Assembly: GCA_003577275.1 (NCBI GenBank)
Contig: QEVO01000006.1
Span: 62,001 to 126,000 of the forward strand
Reading direction: 5' to 3'
Length of the DNA: 64,000 nucleotides
From: Pseudomonadota bacterium
GTDB taxonomy: Bacteria; Pseudomonadota; Alphaproteobacteria; Sphingomonadales; Govanellaceae
The notes under the pieces were generated by a model. That model did not search any database. It had not been told where the DNA came from and saw only the letters and a list, made by a program, of their open reading frames with translations. Of the stretch, positions 10,529 to 45,130 are shown piece after piece. The translations under genes and the position numbers were made by a program. Position 1 is the stretch's first letter. Each line of letters begins with the position of its first letter.

Positions 10529-11083
10529 ATGACGGCGACAGCGGCTCCCCATAATCGCAATCTGCGCACCGCGCTTGTGATGGGCGCGCTGGCGCTTGCC
10601 ATGGTGGGCTTGGCGTTCGCCTCCGCGCCGCTTTATCGTCTGTTCTGTCAGGTGACGGGCTACGGCGGCACGACGCAAGTGGCGACCAACGCCTATGACG
10701 CGCCCATTCTGAACCGCCAGATGACGGTCAGCTTCACCGCCGATGCCGCGCCCGCGCTGCCCTGGCGCTTCGAGCCGGTGCAAAAGCATGTGCGCCTCAA
10801 GGTCGGCGAGGAAGCGCTGGTTTTCTATCGCGTCACCAATTTGAGCGATGAGGAAATGGTGGGCACGGCGACGTTTAACGTCACACCCCACAAGGCGGGG
10901 CCGTACTTCAGCAAGATCGAGTGTTTTTGCTTCACCGAACAACGCCTGGCGGCGGGTGAATCGCGGGAAATGCCGGTGACTTTCTTCATCGATCCGGCGA
11001 TCGCCGACGACGCCAATCTCGATGAAGTTAAGGAAATCACGTTGTCCTATACGTTCTTCAAAGCTAAACAAGTAGTAGAGTGA
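10529..11083 (+). CDS. ctaG: Cytochrome c oxidase assembly protein CtaG (Cox11)
   Basis: Membrane-anchored copper chaperone that delivers copper to the CuB site of subunit I. The 184 residues comprise a short cytoplasmic tail, one membrane helix (TALVMGALALAMVGLAFASAPLYRLFCQVTGYGG) ending in the conserved cysteine of YRLFCQ, and a periplasmic immunoglobulin-like domain with the copper motif FSKIECFCFTEQ. The DPAIADD and ITLSYTFFKAK segments are typical of the family. It follows coxF by 4 bases and precedes ctaE. Confidence 0.96.
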   Translation: MTATAAPHNRNLRTALVMGALALAMVGLAFASAPLYRLFCQVTGYGGTTQVATNAYDAPILNRQMTVSFTADAAPALPWRFEPVQKHVRLKVGEEALVFYRVTNLSDEEMVGTATFNVTPHKAGPYFSKIECFCFTEQRLAAGESREMPVTFFIDPAIADDANLDEVKEITLSYTFFKAKQVVE

Positions 11084-11149: not shown

Positions 11150-11956
11150 ATGGCCGATGCACACGCCAGAGATCACGATTACCATCTCGTAGACCCCAGC
11201 CCATGGCCGGTTATCGGCTCGCTTTCCGCCTTCATCATGGCGGTGGGCGCTATTGTCGCCATGCATGACGGCCCCTCGTGGGTGTTCTATCTGGGCGTCG
11301 CTGGCGTTCTTTACACCATGTATGCATGGTGGCGCGATGTGGTCAACGAAGGCGAGTTCCAGGGCTTTCACACCCCGGTGGTGCAGATCGGCCTGCGCTA
11401 CGGCATGATCCTGTTCATCGCCTCCGAGGTGATGTTCTTCCTGGCCTGGTTCTGGGCGTACTTCAACGCCTCCCTGTTTCCCAATGAGGCCATGGGCAAC
11501 ATCTGGCCGCCGCAAGGCATCGAGACCTTCGATCCCTGGCACCTGCCGCTGGTCAATACCCTGATCCTCTTGCTGTCGGGCACCACGGTGACCTGGGCGC
11601 ACCATGCGCTTCTTCACAACAACCGCAAGGGCTTGGTGCAAGGGCTGGTATGCACGGTGCTTCTGGGCGCCGCCTTCACGGCGATCCAGGCCTACGAGTA
11701 TCAACATGCGGCCTTTTCGTTTGCCGGCAACATCTATGGCTCGACCTTCTTCATGGCCACCGGCTTCCACGGCGCGCACGTCATCATCGGCACCATCTTC
11801 CTGGCGGTTTGTCTGCTGCGGGCCATCAAGGGCCATTTCAAGCCCGACCATCATTTCGGCCTTGAAGCAGCGGCCTGGTATTGGCATTTCGTCGACGTGG
11901 TGTGGCTGTTCCTGTTTGCCTGCATCTACGTTTGGGGCAGCGGCGCCGTTGGCTAG
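11150..11956 (+). CDS. ctaE: Cytochrome c oxidase subunit III
   Basis: Seven-helix membrane subunit that stabilises the aa3 oxidase and its proton-uptake path. The 268 residues include [19 protein letters not shown] at the start, [33 protein letters not shown], and the closing helix [21 protein letters not shown], all family hallmarks. The ATG at 11150 follows AAGGAGCAAG by 6-7 bases, a good ribosome site. It is the last structural subunit of the cluster and is followed by DUF983 and SURF1 genes. Confidence 0.97.
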
Positions 11957-42938: not shown

Positions 42939-43037
42939 CCTTCTCTTTGAGGAGAAGGCGCCGCGTACAAGCGCGGCGGATGAGGTGAATTGGCAACGAC
43001 GTTCCCCTTACCCCGGCCCTCTCCTCGAAGGGGAGGG
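42939..43037. repeat. Two stem-loops in the gap between convergent genes
   Basis: The first stem is CCTTCTC (42939-42945) with GAGAAGG (42952-42958). The second pairs 43017-43024 with 43030-43037 (eight pairs, one G-T). The GC-poor spacer is 58 bases. The arrangement looks like a decayed intergenic palindrome of the common CCCTCTCC/GGAGAGGG sort; it may serve as terminator for both flanking genes. No direct T-run follows either stem. Confidence 0.5.
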
Positions 43038-43074: not shown

Positions 43075-43860
43075 TCACGACTTAGGAAAGAGTTCATCCG
43101 ATCGCCCGGTCACATAATACGCCACCAAGCCAATCCATTCGTGCATGGCAAGGTCGCTGATGCGCAAATTTTCAGCAACGTCGAAGTTCCAGACATTGAC
43201 GCCGTTACCTGATGAGCGATAAGCAACCGGATAAGCAATGACCGTCATGCCGGCGCGCTGGAACGCGCCCATCGCGCGCGGCATATGAAACGCCGAAGTG
43301 ACGAGCAGCCATGGCTCAGCCGCTCGCTTCCCCAGCATTTTCTGGGTGTAGATGGCGTTCTCGGCGGTGTCCTGGGACTGGTCTTCCAACAGCAGTCGCG
43401 TTCCGGCGATGCCGACGCCGAGCAAAAAATCTCGCGCCACATCGGCCTGTGTCGCGCCGCCGGGTTCGCGATAGCCGCCGCTATAGAGCACGGGTTTGTC
43501 GGCTAAGCGATGGGCGAGCGCCGCCGCTCCGGCCAGGCGCGCCGCCTCGAACCCTAAGGAAGGTTCGCCGCGAGAGCGCGTCATGCCCGGCTGTTCCGTG
43601 CCGCCAAGAACGATGAGGCCGGCGGCCGTCTTGATGGCCTCATCGGACGGGCGCGCAAAACGCGCTTCCAAGGGCGCGATCAGCCATTGGCCCGTGGGTA
43701 GAATGCCGAAGATGACCAGAAGCATTCCCGCTGCGGCAAGCAGCGTCAGCCCCAAACGCCGCCAGATCATGAGCGTTATAAGACCGCTTGCCGCCAGGAT
43801 CGCCGCCAGATTGCTTGGCTGAAACAACGCCCAGAAAATCTTGGCGGCGACGAAGAACAT
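43075..43860 (-). CDS. YdcF-like DUF218 membrane protein
   Basis: A 261-residue protein with two N-terminal membrane helices (NLAAILAASGLITLMI and LGLTLLAAAGMLLVIFGIL) and a DUF218 domain beginning AAGLIVLGGTEQPG. The family includes YdcF, SanA and ElyC, linked to envelope polysaccharide and peptidoglycan metabolism. The domain ends VWNFDVAENLRISDLAMHEWIGLVAYYVTG. Its ATG at 43858-43860 lies 3 bases from a MITE end, so its ribosome site, and perhaps its promoter, come from the MITE. The gene probably once followed the epimerase directly; see the MITE entry. Confidence 0.9.
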   Translation of the reverse strand: MFFVAAKIFWALFQPSNLAAILAASGLITLMIWRRLGLTLLAAAGMLLVIFGILPTGQWLIAPLEARFARPSDEAIKTAAGLIVLGGTEQPGMTRSRGEPSLGFEAARLAGAAALAHRLADKPVLYSGGYREPGGATQADVARDFLLGVGIAGTRLLLEDQSQDTAENAIYTQKMLGKRAAEPWLLVTSAFHMPRAMGAFQRAGMTVIAYPVAYRSSGNGVNVWNFDVAENLRISDLAMHEWIGLVAYYVTGRSDELFPKS

Positions 43861-43863
43861 GTC

Positions 43864-44134
43864 TAGGGCCTGTTGACAGTCATCGCGTGGCCGTGACGCT
43901 GCCGGATTTGGTCAGTCCAGCAGGAGCCGGGCGAAGTGCGATGTGGGGCATCGGGCAAGCCCGGCGACGCCCTGGATGGCCAAATCCGGCGCGCCCCTTC
44001 GGGGTGGGGCGAAAATGGCCATCTGGCGCGGCGAAAAGCTCGACCGTATTGCCGATACGCTCTGCGCTTTTCTTCTCCCATATGGCCATTTTTGCTCCCA
44101 TCGCGGCTCATGTGATGACTGTCAACAGGCCCTA
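43864..44134. mobile_element. 271-bp MITE with 21-bp perfect terminal inverted repeats
   Basis: Ends 43864-43884 and 44114-44134 are exact reverse complements over 21 bases; the sequence starts TAGGGCCTGTTGACAG. Internal inverted repeats (43901-43911 with 43980-43990; 44012-44022 with 44082-44092) give a long foldback. There is no significant gene inside. TA bases at both borders fit a TA target duplication, as made by IS630/Tc1-like transposases, but other families are possible. It sits between the UDP-glucuronate epimerase and the YdcF-like gene. The right repeat contains the epimerase stop codon (44132-44134). Removing the element and one TA leaves the stop and the next ATG two bases apart. 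Confidence 0.85.
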
Positions 44135-45130
44135 TAGCCTGTTGTGGTAGCGCTGGTACCAGTCGACAAAGCGCGGAATGCCGACGTCGATGGGCGTGGT
44201 CGGTTTAAAGCCGATGGCGGCGGTCAGATCGTCGATATCAGCATAGGTTTCCTTGACGTCGCCGGGCTGCATCGGTTCGAAAATCTTTTCCGCTTTCTTG
44301 CCGAGCGCGTTTTCCAAGATCTCGATCATATGCGTCAGCTTTTCGGAGCGGTGATTGCCGATGTTGTAGACGTGATGCGGCGCGGTCGAACCATTGGCGT
44401 GGATCGAGCCGTCATCCTTCGGCGGGTTATCCAGGGTGCCGATAACGCCGGTCACGATGTCGTCGATGTAGGTGAAATCGCGGCGCATGTCGCCATGGTT
44501 GAAAACGTGAATGGGCTTGCCGGCGAGAATCGATTCGGTAAATATCCACAGCGCCATGTCCGGCCGCCCCCAAGGGCCGTAGACGGTAAAGAAGCGCAGG
44601 CCCGTCTGCGGCATGCGGTAGAGATGAGCGTAGCACTGGCTCATCAGCTCGTCGGCGCGCTTGGTGGCGGCATAGAGTGATACCGGGTTATCCACCCGAT
44701 CCCTGGTGGAGAAGGGGAGCTCGGTGTTGCCGCCGTAGACCGAGCTGGAGCTGGCGTAGACCAGATGCTCGAAGCCGTCCGTATGGCGGCAGAATTCCAT
44801 GATGTTTAAATGTCCGATCAGGTTCGACTGGGCGTAGACGAAGGGGTTGGTCAGCGAATAGCGCACGCCGGCCTGGGCGCCCAGGTGCACCACCTTCCTG
44901 ACCTTGAGGCCGGCAAGGGCCGCTTTCAGCGCCGCGAAATCAGAAAAGTCCACCTTCTTGAAGGTGAAGTTCGCCTGACCTTCCAGCTCGCCCAAGCGGG
45001 CCTTCTTCAGGTCCACCGAATAATAGTCGTTCAAGTTGTCGATGCCGACCACCCGCTCGCCCCGCGCCAGCAGGCGCTGAGCGGTGTGGAAGCCGATGAA
45101 GCCGGCAACGCCGGTAACGACGATGGTCAT
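44132..45130 (-). CDS. UDP-glucuronate 4-epimerase (CapI/LspL-like)
   Basis: Short-chain dehydrogenase fold enzyme interconverting UDP-glucuronate and UDP-galacturonate for capsule or lipopolysaccharide. The 332 residues start with TIVVTGVAGFIGFHTAQRLLARGERVVGIDNLNDYYSVDLK (NAD loop and the NDYYSV signature of CapI-type enzymes), then HLGAQAGVRYS, and catalytic SSSSVYGG with YAATK. Normal length for the family. The stop codon is inside the terminal repeat of a MITE, but the C-terminus (PRFVDWYQRYHNRL) looks complete. On the minus strand and upstream of the YdcF-like gene. Confidence 0.93.
   Translation of the reverse strand: MTIVVTGVAGFIGFHTAQRLLARGERVVGIDNLNDYYSVDLKKARLGELEGQANFTFKKVDFSDFAALKAALAGLKVRKVVHLGAQAGVRYSLTNPFVYAQSNLIGHLNIMEFCRHTDGFEHLVYASSSSVYGGNTELPFSTRDRVDNPVSLYAATKRADELMSQCYAHLYRMPQTGLRFFTVYGPWGRPDMALWIFTESILAGKPIHVFNHGDMRRDFTYIDDIVTGVIGTLDNPPKDDGSIHANGSTAPHHVYNIGNHRSEKLTHMIEILENALGKKAEKIFEPMQPGDVKETYADIDDLTAAIGFKPTTPIDVGIPRFVDWYQRYHNRL

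Follow-up and report, generated by a model that had tools for sequence, protein, structure and literature searches.

A TA-inserting mobile element on an epimerase stop codon carries a two-armed structural core that recurs behind different terminal repeats

Positions 43864–44134 of the window (the whole 64,000-nucleotide stretch analysed here, from a Govanellaceae contig) are a non-autonomous TA-inserting mobile element (a MITE) with IS5-type ends, inserted exactly at the stop codon of an NAD-dependent epimerase gene, and its interior is a structural core common to elements with different ends. The reading that accounts best for the data as a whole, namely a TA-inserting element on the epimerase stop with a two-armed core, is likely (probability of about 0.82). 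The common view of MITEs is that of decayed insertion sequences (IS) in which nothing but the ends is conserved; a conserved core behind variable ends is unusual for such an element. Taken by itself, the element of the window would be ordinary, and the new part is the conserved core with its changing ends.

The element (Table 1) is 271 nt long and contains spurious frames only, without a transposase gene; the net gain resulting from its insertion is 269 nt, i.e. 271 less one TA. It satisfies the MITE criteria: it is short, lacks a transposase gene, has perfect 21-nt inverted ends and displays a TA duplication when compared to the empty site of a second genome of the same genus (G001); there are two copies in the source genome and two in G001, with reciprocal empty sites, the copy number being low; and its ends are shared with autonomous elements, since identical ends of 15–20 nt are found on IS elsewhere. 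The epimerase stop reads CTA-TAG, the final TAG being made up of the duplicated target TA and the G with which the element begins. Note that the native sequence preceding the insertion, CAACAGG-CTA-TAG, resembles the element's own end, CAACAGG-CCC-TA (window 43855–43863 and 44112–44140), so that after insertion an identical AACAGG again stands 8 nt ahead of the ydcF ATG; we regard this recreation at an equal distance as due to chance.

Table 1. Coordinates of the element, its parts and the flanking genes in the window
Feature	Position	Strand	Remarks
Whole element with both TA borders	43864..44134	.	core 43866-44132 plus one TA duplication
Left terminal inverted repeat, TAGGGCCTGTTGACAGTCATC	43864..43884	+	perfect over 21 nt against the right end; IS427-type
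Right terminal inverted repeat	44114..44134	-	first bases TA + G (minus strand) form the epimerase stop TAG
Core arm 1	43898..43994	+	covariance-model score 89.8 bits (training sequence)
Small CCCC-TTC-GGGG hairpin between the arms	43994..44004	.	limits approximate
Core arm 2, inverted relative to arm 1	44004..44100	-	80.3 bits (training sequence)
NAD-dependent epimerase gene, upstream neighbour	44132..45130	-	stop TAG rebuilt by the element end
YdcF/ElyC-like DUF218 gene, downstream neighbour	43075..43860	-	intact; Pfam/NCBIfam

The source genome (G000; 3.25 Mb, 14 contigs, 88.6% complete) contains a second full-length copy (G000:C4:54260-54531, 95%), and G001 contains a full-length copy on contig C42 (94%) and a shorter one, with an internal deletion, on C56. 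A search of 99 genomes returned complete or nearly complete copies from these two only and short partial matches from four others, and the end pattern is confined to the same two among 396 genomes of the order. The uninterrupted G001 junction, CACAACAGGCTATAGGCATG, differs from the joined flanks of the source genome, CACAACAGGCTATAGACATG, by one substitution and has exactly one TA; over 527 nt, the joined flanks and the empty site are 92.4% identical. The distance from the epimerase TAG to the ydcF-like ATG is 2 nt in G001 versus 271 nt in the source genome. Six of the seven other genomes compared have the epimerase immediately upstream of the ydcF-like gene and lack the element there; the seventh locus (L034) shows no epimerase in the 3.8 kb examined. 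Since the epimerase stop is separated from the start of the aligned region by 2 nt in G001 but by 22 to 79 nt in the other genomes, tight coupling characterizes the genus. Conversely, the C42 insertion site of G001 is empty in the source genome (98% over 403 nt, one TA). The C4 site of the source genome corresponds to the C56 site of G001 and is occupied in both; the element therefore predates the split of the two species, and the reciprocally empty C42 and epimerase–ydcF sites imply that it moved after it. G001 also displays two solo ends without a partner. One (G001:C38:32612, L026:1501) supplies the TAG of a 419-codon frame that we take to be moeA-like (from its translation, without a family search), at a locus with no match in the source genome; the other (G001:C9:32186, L024:1520) lies just after the stop of an ELFV-dehydrogenase gene and is absent from the orthologous place in the source genome.

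Scanning the 20-nt end against 84,980 species genomes yielded at least 118 stretches. Paired ends enclose either elements of about 39–471 nt or elements of 843–875 bp, and ends identical over 15–20 nt occur on 843–875-bp IS of Burkholderia sp. OK233, a Magnetovibrio MAG and an Entotheonella MAG. Where examined, these long elements carry two frames, DUF4096 (PF13340) and DDE_Tnp_1 (PF01609), and match NCBIfam NF033580, i.e. the IS5 family; the criteria of the IS5 family and IS427 group (DUF4096 plus DDE transposase, two frames, TA target) are satisfied by these autonomous partners. The name IS427 rests on the length, the 2-bp duplication and the two frames as tabulated for Paracoccus (PMC3281130), not on an ISfinder comparison. 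There, IS427-group elements such as IS1248, ISPpa6 and ISPze1 measure 832–865 bp, with 13–21-bp ends and a 2-bp TA duplication. Like our partner IS, they have two transposase frames (overlapping in Paracoccus), and they share the TA duplication with the window element; the latter differs from them in its 271 nt, in the absence of a transposase frame and in an interior unlike the IS. In Burkholderia sp. OK233, two tandem 852-bp IS copies have one TA in common (L052:3992-5693), as expected if the CTAG recreated at the IS end is itself a target.

No intact cognate transposase was found in the source genome, only sub-threshold transposase fragments, and no DUF4096 gene was found in any of four genomes (G000–G003), the source genome being only 88.6% complete. 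One fragment on contig C7 of the source genome ends with ATGAATGTCAAC and then diverges from the end of the element, which indicates that a relic of a relative is present. An intact DDE frame at C42:46146 of G001 was discarded as the cognate, none of the end sites recorded matching it. Derivation of the element from an IS of its own genome by internal deletion was likewise not supported: no intact cognate IS was found in the assembly, and none of eight IS loci matches the core model. The interior has no match to the IS427-type IS either.

The preliminary description, made from the sequence alone, had recognized a 271-bp element with perfect 21-bp ends and TA borders, and this held, coordinates included. 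It had also claimed that removal with one TA leaves the epimerase TAG and the ydcF-like ATG two bases apart, as the G001 empty site bears out, and that both proteins are intact with a stop codon within the right end, which is correct. It took the genes to be adjacent and coupled, a claim that related genomes with separated genes or unrelated intergenic sequence would have refuted; it stands, given the exact empty site in the genus and the adjacency in six of seven genomes. Of the searches it proposed, that for copies in the genome found one further copy, and that for a transposase with matching ends found autonomous IS in other bacteria, with none intact in the source genome. The placement of the genes was refined, both being on the minus strand, and the 'polysaccharide' label of the two neighbours rests on Pfam/NCBIfam names only (DUF218/ElyC-like; NAD-dependent epimerase). 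Every claim that it made on the sequence itself proved right; what had been missed is the conserved two-armed interior.

The transcribed strand of the element folds at −160.1 kcal/mol (z −11.5) and the other strand at −186.3 kcal/mol (z −14.3), in a four-way shape formed by the end stem, arm 1, the small CCCC-TTC-GGGG hairpin and arm 2. Each arm follows the motif stem 1; YAGGMR; stem 2; GNRGN; GCG-hairpin-CGG; NCRAG; stem 2; RACGM; stem 1, and the arms stand head to head wherever both were found, usually with a gap of 6–10 nt. In an alignment of 17 arms, which include related copies from the genus, 90.7% of cells are paired in this structure versus 28.7–39.0% when it is slid, and 18 of the 21 pairs show double changes; RNAalifold run without constraint returns the same fold, with 27 pairs, 23 of them with double changes. 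The internal loops (AG, GCG, CG, AG and CG columns) are nearly invariant over the 17 arms, the stems of which are very different. Three further double changes are found between the four genus copies; compensatory changes between copies also affect the outermost stem (pair 16/257). A strict stem-1 pattern, which retrieved seven arms only, was replaced by a looser rule, which retrieved 18 arms from 2.36 Mb and, in a later run over 3.58 Mb, 21 arms, with none in reversed sequence; these counts are not a rate because the loci were partly chosen for the motif. Rfam, searched up to E 1, matched neither the window region nor the elements in L005, L010–L013, L214, L219, L220, L249 and L250; its sole rows were a chance snaR-A match and a real tRNA.

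Besides those of the window element, at least 14 terminal repeats bound elements of about 270 nt that have the same core, and three of these repeats occur in the source genome. Such elements were reached via weak matches, first on contig C1 of the source genome (L005) and in genomes G017, G039 and G079, then on two IMG/VR contigs; further two-armed elements lie on plasmids of Pararhizobium, Terrarubrum, Agrobacterium and Thalassospira, cultured carriers including Pararhizobium qamdonense T808 and Thalassospira marina CSC3H3. They have the same shape and length (mostly 257–305 nt) but different ends, L219 having one arm and 192 nt. When the 15 ends, that of the window included, are aligned from the TA, a median of 10 of 21 positions are common, including the TAGAGC-like start of many. 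A covariance model run over the window and 1.2 Mb of the source genome (1.264 Mb) gave seven matches at 40.8 bits or more, the next best reaching 17.3. Three are training arms and four are untrained (40.8–66.5 bits), namely the second arm of the element at C1:300305-300585, a single arm at C9:182218-182316, and the two arms of a new element at C1:756180-756461, which lies between two co-directional frames and has TTAGACCCTTCTTCGACC ends. Untrained second arms were also found in most of the other elements, and no convincing arm in 400 kb each of G079 and G003 (best 21.1 bits). Of 12 IS427-ended elements of 260–291 nt from outside the genus, 9 carry the core (24.8–36.1 bits; no match for the other three), in MAGs of Rhodobacteraceae, Pelagibius, a betaproteobacterium and Exilibacterium; IS427-ended elements of Beta- and Gammaproteobacteria thus also carry it.

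A search for the element itself on plasmids gave no whole-element match; weak arm matches were seen only in distant plasmids, and none for L011 or L216. Among 28 stretches, regular expression and model recognized the core in L216 and L229 only, the model having been run on none of the remaining 26; the matches of the viral contigs L213, L215, L217 and L218 to the core pattern look like chance occurrences in coding DNA. L229 (IMG/VR 2648501770, classed viral) has two two-armed elements with different ends about 210 nt apart (10740–11006 and 11217–11483), the second with TAGGGTCC ends. In a Rhodobacteraceae MAG, a second arm match (L067:4440-4620, 32.4 bits) lies in a palindrome with ends CTAGGCTCAGGACCCATCAATCCC, which differ from the IS427 type, directly at a TAG.

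Fifty paired insertions, three rows of which come from G001 (one of these a spurious pairing), define the target as YTAR (46/50), most often CTAG (33/50). A TA target followed by an element beginning with G always reads TAG. The C42 insertion of G001 also sits on a native TAG: a nitronate-monooxygenase-like frame ends on the element, and the empty site reads CGG-TAG. We then counted insertions whose restored target is the TAA or TAG that terminates an open frame no shorter than 150 codons, and compared them with sites of the same tetranucleotide. In a first run, 16 of 47 insertions fell on such stops (7.7 expected). A second run was restricted to 62 non-redundant insertions by dropping those with less than 450 nt of flank, without a TA border or with repeated flanks, as well as the genus's own loci: short elements lay at stops in 17 of 32 cases (9.8 expected; 23 of 5000 draws reach 17), IS of at least 800 bp in 4 of 30 (4.3 expected). 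A Pfam-matched frame ends at 15 of the 17 short-element stop sites, L067 and L140 being without. Short elements with IS427-type ends thus seem commoner on the stops of long frames than on matched sites, full-length IS not, with the reservations that the split was made post hoc, after the first run had been seen, and that element type and genome are confounded (one betaproteobacterium, 10 of 16; Entotheonella, 0 of 4). We read the excess as survival bias, young IS showing the raw target choice and older short copies what selection has kept. In the literature searched, no paper had the end sequence and none dealt with stop-codon targeting by name.

The mechanism that we propose is partly inferred, without data on transcription, transposition or structure probing. 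An IS427-like transposase, now lost from the source genome or persisting there only as a relic, would have moved the element in trans into the TA of the epimerase stop codon, turning the 2-nt spacing of the downstream gene into a 271-nt folded leader; the epimerase protein is unchanged because the TA and the element's first base, G, recreate TAG. The interior is a two-armed structural core and not an IS remnant, and it recurs in elements of similar size with unrelated ends; core-bearing elements would move with the help of any TA-targeting IS that suits their ends. Activity of the core would require a single-stranded copy, most probably RNA formed when transcription reads through the element; an RNA role is favoured because head-to-head arms give one sense arm on either strand and because of the stop-codon and intercistronic positions. 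It may stabilize or process the upstream message, which would make insertions at gene ends and between operon genes tolerated. The function of the core remains unproven: action at the RNA level is our inference, and binding of a DNA cruciform is as compatible with the data.

The effect on the ydcF-like gene is a prediction. As the preliminary description had claimed, the element supplies the leader of this gene: it forms the whole of it, and both neighbouring proteins are intact. This held as sequence, and a search of the element found neither a sigma-70-like promoter nor a terminator. The AACAGG before ydcF, the presumed ribosome site, is fully paired with the element in place, partly open in the joined sequence of the source genome and mostly paired in the empty site of G001. 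The insertion is predicted to uncouple translation and probably to lower ydcF expression, transcription reading through; lower ydcF translation remains a prediction only, because AACAGG is also mostly paired in the G001 empty site.

Two alternatives for the core remain possible. In the first, the core is active as DNA and not as RNA: extruded as a cruciform or hairpin, it would bind a transposase or a host protein and thereby promote transposition. Covariation and conserved loops suit any single-stranded fold, the head-to-head arms suit a cruciform, and elements with different ends carry the core; a common protein partner, however, was not identified. In the second, the element is a plain MITE, with functionless palindromic filler between IS427 ends whose arms are kept alike by hairpin-templated repair and whose similar interiors reflect common descent plus drift of the ends. 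All parts would then fold because all are palindromic, and the change at pair 16/257 is what templated repair would give. On the other hand, such repair is not expected to leave near-invariant internal loops in 17 arms, nor does this view fit arms recurring with at least 14 other ends. Maintenance of the arms purely by hairpin templating is still not excluded, and covariation could possibly arise that way without selection. A third alternative, a domesticated regulator whose insertion was selected for giving ydcF its own promoter, terminator or leader, has in its favour that the element is the entire ydcF leader and spares both proteins; it is unlikely, given that no promoter-like site or terminator was found in the element, that the element is absent here from G001 and from five other genomes possessing both genes, and that the same element adjoins unrelated genes elsewhere. 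Finally, one clean TA would fit precise excision of an ancestral insertion in G001 as well as its absence, but this is very improbable in view of the post-split movement seen at C42 of G001, and insertion in the source lineage is simpler because five further genomes lack the element at the gene pair.

Some known systems resemble the element in part. MITEPsy1 of Pseudomonas syringae (PMC3189936) is also a MITE with IS5-family-like ends, inserting at CTAG or YTAA, but it is 100 nt long, has a 4-nt duplication, is related to ISPsy2 and shows no two-armed core in the relevant sections of that paper. The Chunjie MITE of Geobacter uraniireducens differs in length (235 bp) and sequence (review PMC10969869). 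The CIR repeats of Caulobacter and Brucella (PMC2229807) are alphaproteobacterial intergenic repeats whose RNA is proposed to form two arms and a linker; they measure about 110 bp, have GANTC at the loop and lack pairing between the 5' and 3' ends, whereas the window element has about 270 nt, an outer stem formed by the terminal repeats and no GANTC in its arm loops. CIR membership was therefore rejected on length (271 versus about 110 bp) and on the GANTC loop. The pneumococcal RUP and the Correia elements are short, TA-inserting and moved by IS with like ends, and Correia RNA affects neighbouring genes; RUP, however, belongs with IS630 and not with IS5 (PMC2229807). Among the sequences examined here, no IS630 element came up that had the ends of the window element.

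The same folded core, with covarying stems, fixed loops and many ends, thus extends across Alpha-, Beta- and Gammaproteobacteria. If it is functional, such bacterial MITEs would be independent parasites with a structured device of their own. A bolder reading, which we would neither defend nor dismiss on present evidence, is that of an undescribed class of proteobacterial mobile elements of about 270 nt, defined by the core and not by the ends, with a selected single-stranded function (as RNA or extruded DNA), and settling on stops when IS427-ended; coupled with at least 14 TA-type ends, the core would behave like a hitchhiker changing IS vehicles. The literature searched did not cover the core. 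The covariance model makes core-bearing elements findable, and the target data yield a simple rule: an element that targets TA and starts with G can insert into operons and leave the upstream protein whole.

Two minor features of the window remain to be mentioned. Positions 42950–43030, 3' of a UDP-glucose dehydrogenase gene, are a palindrome-rich intergenic stretch (GGAGAAGGCGCCGCG...CCCTCTCCTCGAAGGGGAGGG) that resembles another intergenic repeat, and a tmRNA gene is called at 1417–1744, with the tag ANDNDVMALAA, marked with an asterisk by ARAGORN.
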